Shown here in pieces: positions 26,763 through 33,889 of a stretch of DNA of 34,622 bases. The notes under the pieces were generated by a model, which was given only the letters and a program-made list of their open reading frames with translations, had not been told where the DNA came from and ran no database searches. Position numbers and translations under genes: made by a program. The first letter of the stretch is position 1. The number at the start of each line of letters is the position of its first letter. Origin of the DNA: Actinomycetota bacterium (GTDB taxonomy: Bacteria; Actinomycetota; Acidimicrobiia; IMCC26256; PALSA-610); contig SXHN01000110.1 in NCBI GenBank assembly GCA_005773635.1, positions 1 to 34,622 of the forward strand, in the 5' to 3' direction.

Positions 26763-27551
26763 CTATGCCTCACCGAGATAGGCGTTGGAAAGCGCCGTCG
26801 AGTCCGCCAGGAGCTCCGCGGCGGATGCGTTGATCGAAATCGCTCCGCGCACCATCACGTAGGCACGGTCAGCAGTCGAAAGCGCAGCGTTGACGTGCTG
26901 TTCCACAAGGAGCACGCCCACGCCCTGGTCCTGGCAGATATTGCGCATGAGCGGCAACAACTGCTCCACGACGATAGGAGCGAGGCCGAGACTCAACTCA
27001 TCGATCATGATCACTTTGGGGCGAGCAGCTAACGCGCGGGCGACCGCAAGCATTTGTTGTTCGCCGCCCGACATGAGCCCGGCCTTGCGATCCAGGATTG
27101 CCCGCAGAGCCGGAAACGGAGCCACGGCAGCTTCGATTGCATCGGTATCGCGACGGGCAGCGGCGAGCTTGAGGTGCTGGCGTGCCGTGAGCCCGAAAAA
27201 CAAGGCCCTGTCTTCGGGCACATAGGCGAGGCCTCGCGCTCGCAACCCGAGTGCCGTCGCGACCACTTTGCGTTTGCCGTTGAGCGGCTGAACTTCTCCC
27301 AAGATTGTGCAGTCGCCGCCGATGCGCGGCAGCAGGCCCGCGATTGTGGACAACGTTGTGGTTTTGCCTGCACCGTTGGGACCAAGCAGCGCGACCACTT
27401 CGCCTGCGCACACGTCGAGGTCGATGCCATGAACGACTTCCACGTCGTTGTATCCGGCTGTGAGGCCGCGAACCGACAGCAACGGCTCACGACGCGGCAG
27501 CTGCGCCACCGCAGAGGTAAGGGCTCCCGCTTCACTCGGTTGGTCACTCAT
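26763..27551 (-). CDS. livF: Branched-chain amino acid-type ABC transporter ATPase LivF
   Basis: 262 residues. Walker A is GPNGAGKT (57-64), the signature is SGGEQQ (161-166) and Walker B is KVIMIDELSLGLAP (Asp184, Glu185). LVEQHVNAALSTADRAYVM is the H-loop region and is characteristic of LivF. It overlaps livG by 8 bp, indicating coupled translation. An N-terminal extension of about 20 residues precedes the usual start. With LivG it forms the ATPase heterodimer of a HAAT-type importer. Confidence 0.95.
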   Translation of the reverse strand: MSDQPSEAGALTSAVAQLPRREPLLSVRGLTAGYNDVEVVHGIDLDVCAGEVVALLGPNGAGKTTTLSTIAGLLPRIGGDCTILGEVQPLNGKRKVVATALGLRARGLAYVPEDRALFFGLTARQHLKLAAARRDTDAIEAAVAPFPALRAILDRKAGLMSGGEQQMLAVARALAARPKVIMIDELSLGLAPIVVEQLLPLMRNICQDQGVGVLLVEQHVNAALSTADRAYVMVRGAISINASAAELLADSTALSNAYLGEA

Positions 27552-28296
27552 GTGCAGATCCGAGGTATGCGGCGATCACTGCTTGATTGCCGCGAATTTC
27601 TTGGGGCGTGCCAGTTGCAATTACGCGGCCGAAATCAAGCACTGTGATGTCGTCACAGACGTCAAGCACCAATGTCATGTCGTGGTCGACAAGCAACACT
27701 CCGATGCCTCGCTTGGGCAACGAAGCAATGAGTTCGCCGAGCTTGTCGGTTTCGTCGGGGTCGAGACCAGCCGCGGGTTCGTCGAGTAACACGAGTTTTG
27801 GCTTTCCCGCGAGCGCCCTCGCAACACCAACGATGCGCCGCTGACCATGCGACAATTGCTTCGGACGAAGGTCGATCAGATCGTTGATTTTGGTCATTTC
27901 GATGGCATCGCTAACCGACTCGGCGGTGACTCGGCGGTTCGGGTGAATCGCGTCCAACATTGTGGAGTACCAGCGGGGCGCGCTTGCCGCGACGATGAGA
28001 TTTTCTCTGATCGTGAGATCGTCGAAGAGCTCAACGGATTGGAAGGTCCGCACTAGGCCGGCCCGGGCCCGGCTGTGAGGAGGCAGCGATTCGAGACGTC
28101 GTCCTGCGAGTTCGATGATGCCGGTCGCCTTCGGGACAAAGCCACAAATCGCGTCGATCGTAGTTGTTTTTCCCGCTCCGTTTGGTCCGATGAGACCCAT
28201 GACGCGATCGGTGTGGACGTCGATGCTGACGTCGTCGACTGCCCGGAGCCCGCCGTAGCTCACGCCGAGTTGGTGGATGTGCAGCAGCGGATTCAT
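27544..28296 (-). CDS. livG: Branched-chain amino acid-type ABC transporter ATPase LivG
   Basis: 250 residues. Walker A is GPNGAGKT, the signature region LSHGQRR (His instead of the usual second Gly/Ser position, common in LivG-type proteins), and Walker B is KLVLLDEPAAGLDPDE. LLVDHDMTLVLDVCDDITVLDFG is the classic LivG H-loop. The start overlaps the permease stop by 4 bp (ATGA), and the 3' end overlaps livF by 8 bp, so permease, LivG and LivF are translationally linked. Confidence 0.95.
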   Translation of the reverse strand: MNPLLHIHQLGVSYGGLRAVDDVSIDVHTDRVMGLIGPNGAGKTTTIDAICGFVPKATGIIELAGRRLESLPPHSRARAGLVRTFQSVELFDDLTIRENLIVAASAPRWYSTMLDAIHPNRRVTAESVSDAIEMTKINDLIDLRPKQLSHGQRRIVGVARALAGKPKLVLLDEPAAGLDPDETDKLGELIASLPKRGIGVLLVDHDMTLVLDVCDDITVLDFGRVIATGTPQEIRGNQAVIAAYLGSAHE

Positions 28297-30260
28297 GCGG
28301 TGCTCATGCGCCGAAGTTTTGCGACGCTGTGACGCACCGCCGCGACCACACCGTCGGGGTACAGAATCGCGACGGCTATGAGCATGAGTCCGCTGATTGC
28401 GAACTGGTAATTCGACGCGTTGCCGGTGTTGCCCCCCTGGAGCTGGGTGAGTATCCCTCCGGAAGCCAAAAGCCCCGCGACCAATGCGCCACTAATCGAT
28501 GCGATACCTCCCAGGAAACACAGTGCAAGCACTGCGAGTGCGCCCACCACCATGAACTGTTGCGCAGAGAGTGCTGGCGATTGATACGCCAGCAAGGCGC
28601 CGCCGGTGCCAGCGAGCGCAGCACAGACTGCGAAGGCGCTGAGTTTCGTTTGGGTTACGTCGATTCCTGCGGCGGCCGCGGCACGTTCGTTGCCCCGTAC
28701 TGCAAGCCAACGTAATCCAGTTGGGCTGCGTCGAAGGTTCGCAACCGCGAGCGTGGCTAGTACGAAGAGGATCACCGCGAAGATGCCGAACGCGGCGCGA
28801 AAGTTTTCGTCGCCGGTAGCCGAGAACCCGAGATCGATTCCGAAGATCTCGGGCCGCGGGATTGCTCCCAACCCGGCCAGCGATGGTGAATTGAAAACCA
28901 GTTGTTCAATCGCGACCGCGGCTGCGATTGTCGCGACGGCGAGGGTCATGCCCCGCACGCGCACAGCGGGTAAGCCCAACAGCAAACCGATGGCGATTGT
29001 GATGGCGATCGCGAGGAACGGCGCAACCGGAAACGACAGACCCTGTTTCGTCAGTTTGACCGTCGCAAATGCGGCTACGCCTGCGAACGCGTACTGAGCG
29101 AGCGAGATCTGGCCAACGTATCCCGTCACCACGACGCTGGCGAGACCTACGAAACCGGCAATTGTTGACACGACGATGGCGAGACGCCACTGCGCGTCGA
29201 GTTGCAGTAACGCGACGATCGCGGCGGTGGCCATCACCAAACTCCACGCGACAGGATTCCTCGGTGTGGGCGATTCGGGTAGCCGAGATTCGATCATTGC
29301 GGCTCGGTTCGGCAACTTGGAGCCCCGCCACGTGATCGCCACGAGAATCGCGATGACGGGTACGGCTTGACTCAGTCCGTTGTTTGGGAGCCAATCGGGG
29401 AGTGACTTGGATTGCAGCTGAAACCACACGAGTGAACCTTGGGTCATCCCAATCGCGAGCCCGGCGGCGGTTGTCACTGCGAAGCTGTCGAGGCCTCCAA
29501 GCAGAGCCGCGGCAAGCGCGGGCACTACCAAGAGGCTGGTCTCGGTAGGCACGAGCACGCCCGAGACGCCCACGATCAAGATGACGGCTCCGGCACCAAG
29601 CAGCGATGCCAGCACCCAGTTGAAGATCCCGATGCGATGTGGAGAAATACCAGTGAGAATTGCACCCTTTTCTTGCTCGGCCGTCGCAGTGGTTGCTAAC
29701 CCGAACCGCGTGTAGCTGAACGCGAGTGCGAGCAGCAGCGCCGCCACGACCGCAAAACCCGAGAGTACAAAGGCTGAGGTCGGGATCTTGGCGCTTCCGA
29801 TCTTGATGACTCCGCTCGGCAGCATCGACGTGAGCTTGAGTGATGCCGCACCGCTACCGATCTCCTTCGCCCGTAGCGACATTGTGGAGGTGAGATACAG
29901 AAATATACCGAGTGACGCAATCACGCGGGCGAGCGGCGGAGCGTTGCGAAGGGGTCGAAATACTGCGACATAGAGCAGTGCTCCGAAGAATGCCGCGAGT
30001 AACAGCGCGATACTGAGCGCCGCCGCGACCGTCGGACGATCCAAGATGTGCACCTTGCTGGGCGCGCCAAGGATCGGTAACCACAAATCACCGCCCCGTT
30101 CGGTCGAATCCACATCGTAGTTTCGGAGCCCATAAAACGCGTATGCGCTGTACATGCCGACCGCAGCGTGGGCGATGTTGATGACATTGGAGGCGCGAAA
30201 CGACAGCACAAGGCCCAGTGCGAGCGCGGCGATGACCGCGCCTCCTTGCAGCCCGGTCAA
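28293..30260 (-). CDS. Fused LivH-LivM permease of a branched-chain amino acid-type ABC importer
   Basis: 655 residues in one uninterrupted frame. Residues 1 to about 310 match LivH: TGLQGGAVIAALALGLVL, NVINIAHAAVGMYSAY, RFGLATTATAEQEKGA (the cytoplasmic coupling loop, cf. LivH R..ACAEN) and ALLGGLDSFAVTTAAGLAIG. After a linker (about 310-340), residues 340-640 match LivM: VVVTGYVGQISLAQYAFAGVAAF, VRVRGMTLAVATIAAAVAIEQL, WLAVRGNERAAAAAGIDVTQTKLSAF and FLGGIASISGALVAG. The two are normally separate subunits. The listed start is a TTG with GAAAG upstream. The frame is open 15 codons further and reads IIRYFESALTGL, which looks like a real LivH N-terminus, so a rare ATT start at about 30284 is conceivable. 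livG overlaps the stop; livK lies 75 bp upstream. Confidence 0.92.
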   Translation of the reverse strand: MTGLQGGAVIAALALGLVLSFRASNVINIAHAAVGMYSAYAFYGLRNYDVDSTERGGDLWLPILGAPSKVHILDRPTVAAALSIALLLAAFFGALLYVAVFRPLRNAPPLARVIASLGIFLYLTSTMSLRAKEIGSGAASLKLTSMLPSGVIKIGSAKIPTSAFVLSGFAVVAALLLALAFSYTRFGLATTATAEQEKGAILTGISPHRIGIFNWVLASLLGAGAVILIVGVSGVLVPTETSLLVVPALAAALLGGLDSFAVTTAAGLAIGMTQGSLVWFQLQSKSLPDWLPNNGLSQAVPVIAILVAITWRGSKLPNRAAMIESRLPESPTPRNPVAWSLVMATAAIVALLQLDAQWRLAIVVSTIAGFVGLASVVVTGYVGQISLAQYAFAGVAAFATVKLTKQGLSFPVAPFLAIAITIAIGLLLGLPAVRVRGMTLAVATIAAAVAIEQLVFNSPSLAGLGAIPRPEIFGIDLGFSATGDENFRAAFGIFAVILFVLATLAVANLRRSPTGLRWLAVRGNERAAAAAGIDVTQTKLSAFAVCAALAGTGGALLAYQSPALSAQQFMVVGALAVLALCFLGGIASISGALVAGLLASGGILTQLQGGNTGNASNYQFAISGLMLIAVAILYPDGVVAAVRHSVAKLRRMSTA

Positions 30261-30335
30261 CGCACTTTCAAAATACCTAATGATCTTGGGACCGCCTTGA
30301 AGCAGCTACGGACTCGACGCAGTGGTACGCCAAGC

Positions 30336-31646
30336 TCATTGTTTGAGCCAAGCTGCGATATCGAGCCATGGCGTGACTTGTTGAATCGCGCCGTCTTTGA
30401 GCTGGCCCAGGGTTTGCTGTGGCGAGCACATTGCCGGATAGCCAGGGAATTGTTTGCCGTCGCAGGTAAAAGGGTGGCCTGAAAACCCTGGTTCGTTCTT
30501 CGCGGCGCGGAATCCTGCAAGGATCGCTTCCGGTGTGACCTTGTCGCCACCGATGTTGCGCATGATGCCGTACAGAATCATCGTCGATTTGAACGACAGC
30601 GTCCCGGCACTTTGTGCTTCGTATTTGTACTTTGGTCCGTAGCGATTCGCGGCCGCCCTGTACAAGACCGAGTCGGGATTGTTCGGCGTCAGGTCGGATT
30701 CCAGATTGAAAATAATGCCTTCCGCAGCGTCACCAACCGAGTCGATGATTTTGGGGGCGGCGCACGCGCCGGTGACCATGAGCGGCACTTTGAGATCAAT
30801 CTGCTTGGCAGTTTTCATGGTCGGCACACAGCCGGTGTCGGCCGTCAACGCCAGCACTGCGTCTGGGTCCGTCGCAGCGGCCTGGTTGAGTGCTTGCGCC
30901 ATGTCACCTCCGATGATCGGCACCGTGATCATCGCCGGAGTCCCGCCGTGCGCAATGATTGCTTTTTCCACAAGCTTGCCCGCGTCGGTGATGGGCGGAA
31001 ACTCGGCGTGGATCACCGCGATTTTCTTGGCTTTCAACGTGTCCATCGCATACTGAGCCATGCCGACTGCGGCGCCCCAGGTTCCCGCGCTGAACTGGAA
31101 CACTGTCTCGCCTCGAACCGAGTCGAAGCTCACCGGAATACCACCCACCAGCGGAATTCCATTGTCGACCAGCGTCTGGATACCGGTACCCCAAATGTCG
31201 ATGCCGCCGATTACGGCAACGACCTTCTTGGTAACCATCTGCTGAGCGCAACTTTGCGAGATGTCAGGGCTGCCCTGCGTGTCACAGGTAATGAGCTCCA
31301 GTGGACGCCCGTCGACACCATTGAGTTCAGTATTGATGAAATCGATCGCCATTTGATCGGCACTTGTGAGTTCCGGGAATGCGGCCAGCGGACCAGTGTC
31401 TTGGTTGATTGTGCCGATACGAATAGGAGCGCCGGTGGCTTTCGTGGCTTTTGCTGGGAGCAATTTGTCGATCGTGCTGTCGTCGGGCGCACACGCCACA
31501 ACTGACTCGGCGGTCTGGCAATCGACAACAGCTTTGGCGACGGTGGTGGTGGTCCCGTCAACCTTGTTTCCGGGAGTCTCTTCGCTGCAAGCCGCGGTAA
31601 AGAGTGAAATCGCAGCTATAGCGGCGAGCAGTTTTGGCGTACGCAC
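30336..31646 (-). CDS. livK: Substrate-binding lipoprotein LivK-type (periplasmic-binding fold I)
   Basis: 436 residues from GTG 31646 with GGAGAG upstream. The N-terminus MRTPKLLAAIAAISLFTAAC is a lipoprotein signal with lipobox FTAAC, lipidated at Cys20. The mature protein has a Thr-rich tether and then a type I binding fold: IRIGTINQDTGPLAAFPEL, DGRPLELITCDTQGSPDISQSCAQQMV, VVAVIGG, KKIAVIHAEFPPITDAGKLVEKAI and VPLMVTGACAAP. This is the capture protein for the downstream Liv-type importer. The ligand (BCAA or another amide, acid or urea) cannot be read from sequence. Extra Cys pairs suggest disulfides in the exported domain. Confidence 0.93.
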   Translation of the reverse strand: MRTPKLLAAIAAISLFTAACSEETPGNKVDGTTTTVAKAVVDCQTAESVVACAPDDSTIDKLLPAKATKATGAPIRIGTINQDTGPLAAFPELTSADQMAIDFINTELNGVDGRPLELITCDTQGSPDISQSCAQQMVTKKVVAVIGGIDIWGTGIQTLVDNGIPLVGGIPVSFDSVRGETVFQFSAGTWGAAVGMAQYAMDTLKAKKIAVIHAEFPPITDAGKLVEKAIIAHGGTPAMITVPIIGGDMAQALNQAAATDPDAVLALTADTGCVPTMKTAKQIDLKVPLMVTGACAAPKIIDSVGDAAEGIIFNLESDLTPNNPDSVLYRAAANRYGPKYKYEAQSAGTLSFKSTMILYGIMRNIGGDKVTPEAILAGFRAAKNEPGFSGHPFTCDGKQFPGYPAMCSPQQTLGQLKDGAIQQVTPWLDIAAWLKQ

Positions 31647-31736: not shown

Positions 31737-31742
31737 TAAGAT
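31737..31742 (+). promoter_or_regulatory. Putative -10 box for the leuB-ilvE-cimA leader transcript
   Basis: TAAGAT matches the actinobacterial TANNNT -10 consensus and ends 7 bp before the leader-peptide ATG at 31750, so transcription probably starts on or next to that A: a leaderless leader peptide. No good -35 is seen at 16-18 bp (TTCACC is 20 bp away). Leaderless amino-acid leader peptides are known in Corynebacterium. Confidence 0.4.
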
Positions 31743-31749
31743 CCGCCGT

Positions 31750-31809
31750 ATGACCTCCTACCAGCACAACATCGATTTGGCATTTGTCCGAATCATTGTG
31801 ATTGTGTAG
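31750..31809 (+). CDS. Branched-chain amino acid leader peptide (attenuator)
   Basis: A 19-codon frame encodes MTSYQHNIDLAFVRIIVIV and stops at TAG 31807-31809. The last seven residues (VRIIVIV) include six Ile/Val codons, and 8 of 19 residues are Ile, Leu or Val. It lies directly after a likely -10 box and directly before tandem hairpins, an intrinsic terminator and then leuB, the classical architecture of ribosome-mediated attenuation. When charged Ile- or Val-tRNA is scarce the ribosome should stall on the final codons and change folding of the downstream RNA. There is no Shine-Dalgarno; leaderless translation is likely. Confidence 0.8.
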   Translation: MTSYQHNIDLAFVRIIVIV

Positions 31810-31833
31810 CGAACGCCGGGTTCCGGTGTTCGC
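31809..31833 (+). promoter_or_regulatory. Attenuator upstream hairpin
   Basis: Arms GCGAACGCCGG (31809-31819) and CCGGTGTTCGC (31823-31833) pair over 11 positions with one G-U and a 3-nt loop. The 5' arm begins in the stop codon of the leader peptide, so a ribosome stalled on the last Ile/Val codons would cover it. It is followed after three bases by the terminator stem. Confidence 0.75.
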
Positions 31834-31836
31834 GTC

Positions 31837-31862
31837 AGCCGCCCTCAACCGGGCGGCTTTTT
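31837..31862 (+). terminator. Intrinsic terminator of the leuB-operon attenuator
   Basis: Stem AGCCGCCC (31837-31844) and GGGCGGCT (31851-31858), loop TCAACC, then a run of five T (31858-31862). It lies between the leader peptide and leuB on the plus strand, with about 58 bp to the leuB start. The location inside an operon leader, not after a gene, indicates conditional termination. Confidence 0.9.
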
Positions 31863-31919
31863 CATGTCCGAATCTCCACGACTATTCATTCTGACTGCAT
31901 CAACAACGAAGGATTGCCC

Positions 31920-32971: not shown

Positions 32972-33889
32972 ATGCCGATTACCCCAACCGCCAAGATCTG
33001 GATGAACGGCGAAATGGTCGACTGGGACAAAGCCCAAATTCACATCCTGACCCACACGCTGCACTATGGCATGGGCGTGTTCGAAGGAATTCGTGCCTAC
33101 GAGACTGCAACTGGACCTGCAGTGTTTCGCTTGACTGAACACATGCAGCGGCTACACCGAAGCGCGCACATGATGCAAATGGACATGCCGTATTCGGTTG
33201 ATGTGCTTGTGCAAGCAACCAAAGATGTTGTTCGTGCGAGTGGCTTGCCGAGCTGTTACATCCGTCCGATCGCGTACTACGGCTACGGAGAAATGGGGCT
33301 CAATACGATTCCTTGCACTGTGGACGTGGCGATTGCGTGTTGGCCATGGGGGGCGTATTTGGGTGACGACGCACTCACCAAAGGCGTGCGCATGAAGATT
33401 TCGTCGTGGCGCCGTCATGACCACAACATCATGCCGCCTGCGTCGAAGACCACTGGTAACTACGTGAACTCTTCGCTGGCCAAGGTGGAGGCGTTGAAGG
33501 CCGGGTACGACGAAGCTCTGTTGCTGAACCCTCAAGGCATGGTGAGCGAATGCACGGGCGAAAACATTTTCGTTGTCGTCGACGGCACGATCGTCACCCC
33601 GCCTAGTACTGCGGGAGCGTTGCGTGGCATCACCCAAGATTCGGTCACGACGATCGCTCGCGATTTTGGCTACGAAGTGCGCGTCGGCGAACTTTCTCGC
33701 ACCGATTTGTACACGGCTGAAGAAATGTTTGTTGTCGGCACCGCGGCGGAGGTGAGCTCAGTGAATTCGGTCGATGACCGCTCGATTCCGTGCCCGGGGC
33801 CGATGACGCTCGCGATTGGTGAGGAATACGGCCGCGCAGTTCGCGGTCAAGTCGACAAGTACAAAGACTGGTGTGAGCATGTCAACTAG
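32972..33889 (+). CDS. ilvE: Branched-chain amino acid aminotransferase
   Basis: A 305-residue fold-type IV PLP enzyme. It carries out the last step in Val, Leu and Ile synthesis. Seen: HTLHYGMGVFEGIRAYE, RLTEHMQRLHRSA, the Schiff-base Lys159 in ASKTTGNYVNSSLAK, the EALLLNPQGMVSECTGENIF loop, and a C-terminal EMFVVGTAAEVSSVNSVDDR. GAAAGGA precedes the ATG. It is 50 bp after leuB and overlaps cimA by 11 bp, so it is in the same operon under the attenuator. Confidence 0.96.
   Translation: MPITPTAKIWMNGEMVDWDKAQIHILTHTLHYGMGVFEGIRAYETATGPAVFRLTEHMQRLHRSAHMMQMDMPYSVDVLVQATKDVVRASGLPSCYIRPIAYYGYGEMGLNTIPCTVDVAIACWPWGAYLGDDALTKGVRMKISSWRRHDHNIMPPASKTTGNYVNSSLAKVEALKAGYDEALLLNPQGMVSECTGENIFVVVDGTIVTPPSTAGALRGITQDSVTTIARDFGYEVRVGELSRTDLYTAEEMFVVGTAAEVSSVNSVDDRSIPCPGPMTLAIGEEYGRAVRGQVDKYKDWCEHVN

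Follow-up and report, generated by a model that had tools for sequence, protein, structure and literature searches.

A probable Ile/Val leader-peptide attenuator with adjoining, non-overlapping hairpins upstream of leuB-ilvE-cimA in Acidimicrobiia

Leader peptides and terminators upstream of branched-chain amino acid genes have been described in several actinobacteria, and the mycobacterial ilvB1 and Corynebacterium ilvBNC leaders are the known systems closest to the locus reported here. In the ilvB1 leader of Mycobacterium tuberculosis, induction by an AHAS inhibitor is lost once the control codons LVVI are replaced by AAAA; its proposed antiterminator is described as mutually exclusive with the terminator and as hidden by a ribosome standing on the stop codon (PMC13236596). 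The 'fast' attenuator of Corynebacterium glutamicum ilvBNC has three hairpins, two of which adjoin at their bases with a three-nucleotide overlap, GCC (PMC11857589). In addition, mapping in Streptomyces lividans has revealed leaderless leader peptides (PMC8079986). A comparative survey of branched-chain leaders in actinobacteria reported both peptides and terminators and left the switch unclear (PMC1262725). Leaders of leuB and cimA are absent from the Streptomyces lists (PMC1262725, PMC8079986), and the genome set of PMC1262725 was drawn without Acidimicrobiia. Furthermore, in Streptomyces coelicolor, changes to the ilvB leader codons had no effect, as far as PMC1262725 cites that earlier work; by analogy, this result would count against reading such leaders as ribosome-mediated attenuators.

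Here, we describe a leader from a window of 34,622 nucleotides (the whole stretch of DNA that was analysed), which is one contig (C104) of a 3.56-Mb genome in 125 contigs that is 95% complete and has Acidimicrobiia metagenome-assembled genomes as relatives. A short leader ORF, a hairpin that begins in its stop codon (P1) and an intrinsic terminator (P2) precede leuB-ilvE-cimA, and together they very probably form a ribosome-mediated attenuator in which sensing of charged tRNA-Ile and tRNA-Val governs this operon. For comparison with Mycobacteriaceae, the ilvB leaders of relatives including Mycolicibacterium stellerae were used, the M. tuberculosis leader being known from PMC13236596. These leaders likewise carry four branched-chain control codons (LVVI or LLVI), and P1 abuts the terminator in both groups (gap 0 or -1 in Mycobacteriaceae ilvB, 0-6 here). 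The first control codon lies 15-18 nt from P1 in Mycobacteriaceae and about 17 nt in Acidimicrobiia, the latter spacing being bounded below by construction since P1 was parsed from the third base of the stop codon. However, the mycobacterial stop codon usually sits around the P1 5' arm, 30 nt or more past the first control codon, whereas here it lies 15 nt past that codon and P1 starts within the stop. The operons also differ (ilvB1NC in M. tuberculosis, leuB-ilvE-cimA with Ile/Val codons only here), and terminator and antiterminator are mutually exclusive in M. tuberculosis according to the authors, whereas P1 and P2 have no bases in common. The M. stellerae ilvB leader (L234) shows this design with an overlap: AACCC belongs both to a P1-like hairpin of ~17 bp and to the foot of the terminator, and the leader frame extends beyond the control codons.

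The C. glutamicum ilvBNC leader and the ilvB-II motif (PMC11857589, PMC10272879) share with the present elements a near-leaderless upstream ORF, branched-chain codons and adjacent antiterminator and terminator bases. They differ in the GCC shared between hairpins, where the boundary overlap here is not above chance, and in a third hairpin, an anti-antiterminator overlapping the leader ORF, where no conserved hairpin lies in the ORF here. The Streptomyces leuS, trp and ilvB leaders (PMC1262725, PMC8079986) also combine leaderless leader peptides with terminators, with Leu codons before leuS, but their peptides run several residues beyond the control codons, whereas one codon and then the stop follow here. 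The LEU element, an actinobacterial leuA pseudoknot in which a Leu codon run pairs with a Shine-Dalgarno box and which has no obvious terminator, is set apart on the terminator, because all elements here, leuA ones included, have P1 and a terminator. Proteobacterial trp, his and ilv attenuators have the same operon-matched control codons, leader stop and intrinsic terminator, but the present elements have no 1:2 hairpin and no antiterminator sharing terminator bases. By its place, P1 corresponds to the trp 2:3 antiterminator, and the distance from control codons to ribosome-gated hairpin is similar to that of trp 2:3.

The leader and operon in the window

The features of the locus are listed in Table 1. 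A preliminary description, made from the letters of this DNA, had reported a 19-codon frame ending V-R-I-I-V-I-V with a lone Leu codon, a -10 box 7 nt before its ATG, an 11-bp hairpin from the stop codon with a terminator 3 nt further on, and leuB with its own ribosome site; the sequence bears out each of these, the Leu codon being TTG at codon 10, the first base of P1 being the G of the stop codon and the P1-P2 spacer measuring 3 nt. The proposed leuB-ilvE-cimA operon likewise holds, as its genes pass or match NCBIfam models and 89 of 106 related loci have them in this order. Folding of the leader beats 200 of 200 dinucleotide shuffles (z -3.9). An Rfam search of the window, covering leader, riboswitch and T-box families, gave no gathering-level match, its sole hit being at chance level (E 4.2).

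Table 1. Coordinates of the leader, its hairpins and the downstream genes in the window
Feature	Position	Strand	Evidence
-10 box TAAGAT	31737-31742	+	sequence; 7 nt ahead of leader ATG
Leader peptide ORF, MTSYQHNIDLAFVRIIVIV then stop, ATG31750 to TAG31809, 19 codons	31750-31809	+	sequence; equivalents 5' of leuB in most Acidimicrobiia loci
Control codons ATC ATT GTG ATT (Ile-Ile-Val-Ile), -5 to -2 from stop	31792-31803	+	codon conservation
Hairpin P1, 11 bp, GCGAACGCCGG-GTT-CCGGTGTTCGC	31809-31833	+	folding, covariation, ribosome-mask folding
Terminator P2, 8 bp, AGCCGCCC-TCAACC-GGGCGGCT; stem 31837-31858, T run to 31862	31837-31862	+	intrinsic terminator; covariation
leuB ribosome binding site GAAGGA	31908-31913	+	sequence
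leuB, 3-isopropylmalate dehydrogenase, ATG31920	31920-32921	+	NF002898, 493 bits against a cut-off of 393
ilvE, branched-chain amino acid transaminase	32972-33889	+	TIGR01122, 398 bits against a cut-off of 246
cimA, citramalate synthase, 5' part, runs off contig end	33876-34622	+	TIGR00977 best match over the 249 aa present; order kept in relatives

The leader transcript is probably leaderless. Among the 112 elements, 41 of the 173 in-frame ATG or GTG candidates have a TANNNT box 6-10 nt ahead of them, whereas the other two frames yield 1 in 142 (Fisher p = 4e-11), and all three element copies of the window's own genome carry such a -10 box. This enrichment gives comparative backing to the earlier proposal of a leader mRNA without a 5' UTR, and it fits the leaderless leader peptides of S. 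lividans (PMC8079986). A sigma-70 -35 consensus was looked for at the leader promoter of the window and not found. Divergent from the attenuator, an operon of the branched-chain amino acid ABC transporter type occupies positions 26763-31646 on the minus strand and encodes LivG, a fused LivH-LivM permease (655 aa) and a substrate-binding protein (all by NCBIfam) as well as an ORF at 26763-27551, so that branched-chain transport and biosynthesis operons have a common intergenic region.

Conservation of control codons and hairpins in relatives

A covariance model that begins at the stop codon and is therefore blind to the peptide codons (R1) detected the element in 53 of 58 genomes searched of the order, most of these relatives being metagenome assemblies, and nearly always 5' of leuB. 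Equivalent ORFs occur in most Acidimicrobiia leuB loci, so the small frame is conserved, with endings before the stop such as ..AIIVIL, ..AIIVIP, ..SVVVIR, ..VIVIVIV, ..RVIIIP and ..SIVIIR. The share of Ile or Val at positions -5, -4, -3 and -2 is 0.95, 1.00, 0.98 and 1.00 in 43 leuB elements selected by their ORFs; since these were picked by their codons, the fair test is provided by the 27 leuB elements found with the covariance model alone, where the shares are 0.89, 0.56, 0.56 and 0.96. In the codons preceding -5, the share falls to about 0.05-0.1. The check on Ile/Val codons that the preliminary description had suggested thus comes out in its favor, as Ile or Val stands at -5 to -2 in nearly every relative. 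An arrest peptide was considered and rejected, because conservation is limited to the four control residues and the position next to the stop may hold P, R, S, Q, T, D, E, V or L. Three genomes of the order of 1.6-1.9 Mb (G022, G033 and G039, family f10) have leuB, and the attenuator was not detected in them, perhaps reflecting loss through genome reduction.

Covariation argues that P1 and P2 are real RNA structures. In the alignment, 97.9% of cells are paired for P1 and P2 together and compensatory change is seen at 11 of 20 pairs (6 of 9 consensus pairs in P1, 5 of 11 in P2), and the covariation score of 0.284 exceeds that of shuffles (0.152), none of 500 being as high. The base of P1 (GCG/CGC) is conserved. 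The P1 sequence shows compensated variation, and one element (L049) has most of it replaced. The gap between P1 and P2 is 0-6 nt in 111 of 112 elements. Within the terminator stem (CCGUCC/GGGCGG), A1 columns 41/58 hold a U-G wobble in 35 of 41 leuB elements, U-A in three and C-G in three including the window. In addition, a short consensus after the T run (~CRTTGTCCG or CGTTCCCG; window 31863-31870, for example) recurs across elements of several genes and classes and may belong to the termination site.

The same module before other branched-chain genes

A second model (R2) was built from the leuB set and secondary R1 matches, with codons never used in finding the elements before genes other than leuB; as a covariance model never sees the codons, its matches amount to a blind test of codon specificity. 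Downstream of the matches, the identities of leuA, ilvB, cimA and leuS genes were confirmed. Before the stop, leaders of leuA (both kinds) end in ..LLLM, ..LLLT or ..LLLLM (pattern LLLx-stop); those of ilvB in ..ILVVT, ..LVVVVT or ..LVLIT, with Ile, Leu and Val codons; those of cimA as first gene in ..IIIID, ..FIIIP or ..AIIIC (pattern IIIx-stop); and those of leuS in ..LLLR, ..LLLT or ..LGLM (mainly LLLx-stop). Within the class, 26 of 40 genomes had matches, and within the phylum at least 60 of 246 did; the strict filters of the wide search make such counts lower bounds. The window's own genome has three copies, before leuB (window), leuA (C67:22504, ending TTLLLM) and ilvB (C66:48282, ending TTLVVVVT).

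Judged from these sequences, the leader codons match the downstream operon, and a module of three to four control codons, one codon, stop, P1 and P2 appears to be reused across Actinomycetota with the codons alone exchanged. It would sense Leu before leuA and leuS, Ile, Leu or Val before ilvB, Ile before cimA, and Ile or Val before leuB-ilvE-cimA. Control by leader peptides thereby reaches leuB-ilvE-cimA, cimA standing alone and additional leuS genes. The preliminary description had proposed sensing of Ile and Val but not of Leu at the window locus, and the Ile/Val run at -5 to -2, the covariation of P1 and P2 and the operon-matched codons all support that view, which places leuB under Ile/Val rather than Leu control. 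Dehydrogenases of the LeuB type act in leucine synthesis as well as in isoleucine formation via citramalate, and ilvE is used for all three branched-chain amino acids. The leuB of the window, the one close LeuB found in a search of its own genome, may also serve the citramalate route, and control of leuB-ilvE-cimA by Ile/Val, leuA by Leu and ilvB by all three would make a coherent division of sensing. Threonine deaminase (ilvA) is present in the same genome, so cimA need not be the sole isoleucine route.

Weak model matches at four loci (L160, L161, L185 and L229) were judged false, being without a leader, and one candidate leuS element (L191) was dropped for want of a confirmed downstream gene. 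A strong R2 match (E 3e-11) at L190, positions 723-791, lies 5' of an aminotransferase gene of the aspartate/serine-glyoxylate type; its leaderless-looking GTG frame reads MKLTRRSNK before the stop, without a branched-chain run, and its hairpin pair may be coupled to another sensor. Another match (L207, positions 1501-1569), with a leader ending in GFVAIA before the stop, lies 5' of a gene that by eye resembles isocitrate lyase and is either a chance match or a further regulon member.

Ribosome position, readthrough and rival explanations

Folding with a ribosome mask (assumed footprint reaching from 18 nt before the first base of the A-site codon to 12 nt after it) gave P1 a probability of 0.98 when control codons 1-2 were in the A site, 0.35 for codon 4 and 0.00 for the stop codon; the corresponding values in the window were 1.00, 0.01 and 0.00. 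This pattern points to P1 as the part that reads ribosome position. In contrast, P2 had a probability of 0.88-0.98 in all ribosome states, so the mask folding proposed earlier, given its assumed footprint, sustains a ribosome-gated P1 and leaves P2 closed in every state.

The preliminary description had doubted that the switch follows the textbook, and rightly, as no conserved antiterminator pairing was found. Three kinds of pairing that would let an antiterminator share bases with P2 were compared with swaps or shuffles, and none was convincing. Pairing of the control codons with the P2 3' arm, prompted by the sequence CTCCTGC, which the leuA2 codons share with the P2 5' arm, was rejected because most types were no better than shuffled codons. 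An extension of P1 into the P2 base through the bases of the stop and last codon, in the style of C. glutamicum, scored about equal to shuffled sequences and was also dropped. For a 1:2-type hairpin in the leader ORF, RNAalifold gave no conserved structure; this negative is strongest for leuB, as poor alignment of the ilvB set made even the P1 helix disappear there. The third kind, between the P1 3' arm (GGYGUUCG) and the spacer plus P2 5' arm (CGACCGUC), would form a weak antiterminator when the ribosome masks the P1 5' arm. A 7-8 bp hairpin with one mismatch does recur in many leuB elements, and its mean energy of -6.3 kcal/mol compares with -5.6 (sd 0.35) for shuffled arms. However, arms swapped between genomes give an equal energy (-6.2), the pairing is far weaker than P1 (about -20) or P2 (about -17) and comprises 4-6 pairs in the window, and it would form with the ribosome at the stop, which is the state of amino acid plenty and thus the wrong direction. 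This candidate was rejected on these grounds, and we consider it improbable that such a pairing makes the switch. The short pairing GGTG/CGCC noticed earlier exists in the window, but its conservation is not above chance. Without a base-sharing antiterminator, the step from P1 to readthrough is left unexplained by base pairing.

A conserved short ORF with consecutive codons for amino acids of the pathway stands before the operon, an intrinsic terminator lies between this ORF and the first gene, and P1 depends on ribosome position under the assumed footprint; as the mutual exclusivity of the textbook was not found, the element is classed as a variant working like ribosome-mediated attenuators. 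In the proposed mechanism, the transcript would begin at the leader ATG or directly beside it, and the 19-codon leader would be translated by a ribosome following RNA polymerase. With plentiful Ile and Val, the ribosome would reach the stop codon and its front edge would cover the P1 5' arm, which starts in that codon, so that P1 would be open, P2 would close and transcription would end. When Ile or Val is short, the ribosome would stall on ATC-ATT-GTG-ATT with its front edge just short of P1; P1 would then fold, P2 would fail to terminate and leuB-ilvE-cimA would be transcribed. We infer both the translation of the leader and this direction of control, in which P1 would be the starvation-state antiterminator. 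As P1 refolds after ribosome release, repression would need a ribosome lingering at the stop, or else basal readthrough would occur.

How P1 would prevent termination may be a matter of space. To terminate, P2 would have to close within the RNA exit channel all the way to the RNA-DNA hybrid, and a stable 11-bp P1, tethered by a few nucleotides at the 5' foot of P2, could not be drawn into the channel with it. Tentatively, and with somewhat less than even confidence, we suggest steric antitermination, whereby an abutting P1 without shared bases would block P2 closure inside RNA polymerase and ribosome position would decide whether P1 is present. More than 100 elements show one geometry, with the ribosome-gated hairpin and the terminator touching without overlap, which turns the 'missing antiterminator' into a directly testable steric hypothesis.

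Instead, the main role of P1 might be to pause transcription, keeping RNA polymerase in place until the ribosome catches up and melts the hairpin, with antitermination arising otherwise, through timing or ribosome-polymerase contact. Pause hairpins occupy this place in other leaders, P1 is a stable GC hairpin, the mask folding predicts that it melts once a ribosome arrives at the stop, and pausing has been proposed for the C. glutamicum leader (PMC11857589); we regard this as rather unlikely, however, because pausing alone explains neither readthrough with a stalled ribosome nor the constantly short P1-P2 gap. Alternatively, a protein might bind P1 or the P1-P2 tandem and bring about antitermination, the leader ORF being incidental or auxiliary. 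That no RNA-RNA switch was found and that the GCG/CGC base is conserved would suit such a protein, yet the leader codons follow the operon in each of five gene families, which would be unnecessary with one shared RNA-binding protein, and both the compensated variation of P1 and its replacement in L049 speak against a bound sequence, making this very unlikely. The predicted folding of P2 in all states would also agree with a constitutive terminator and a chance ORF, a mere transcript end 5' of leuB with no regulation. This we judge extremely unlikely, given the 95-100% Ile/Val at -5 to -2 in relatives against about 7% in neighboring codons, the operon-specific amino acids and the conserved geometry of codons, stop and P1.
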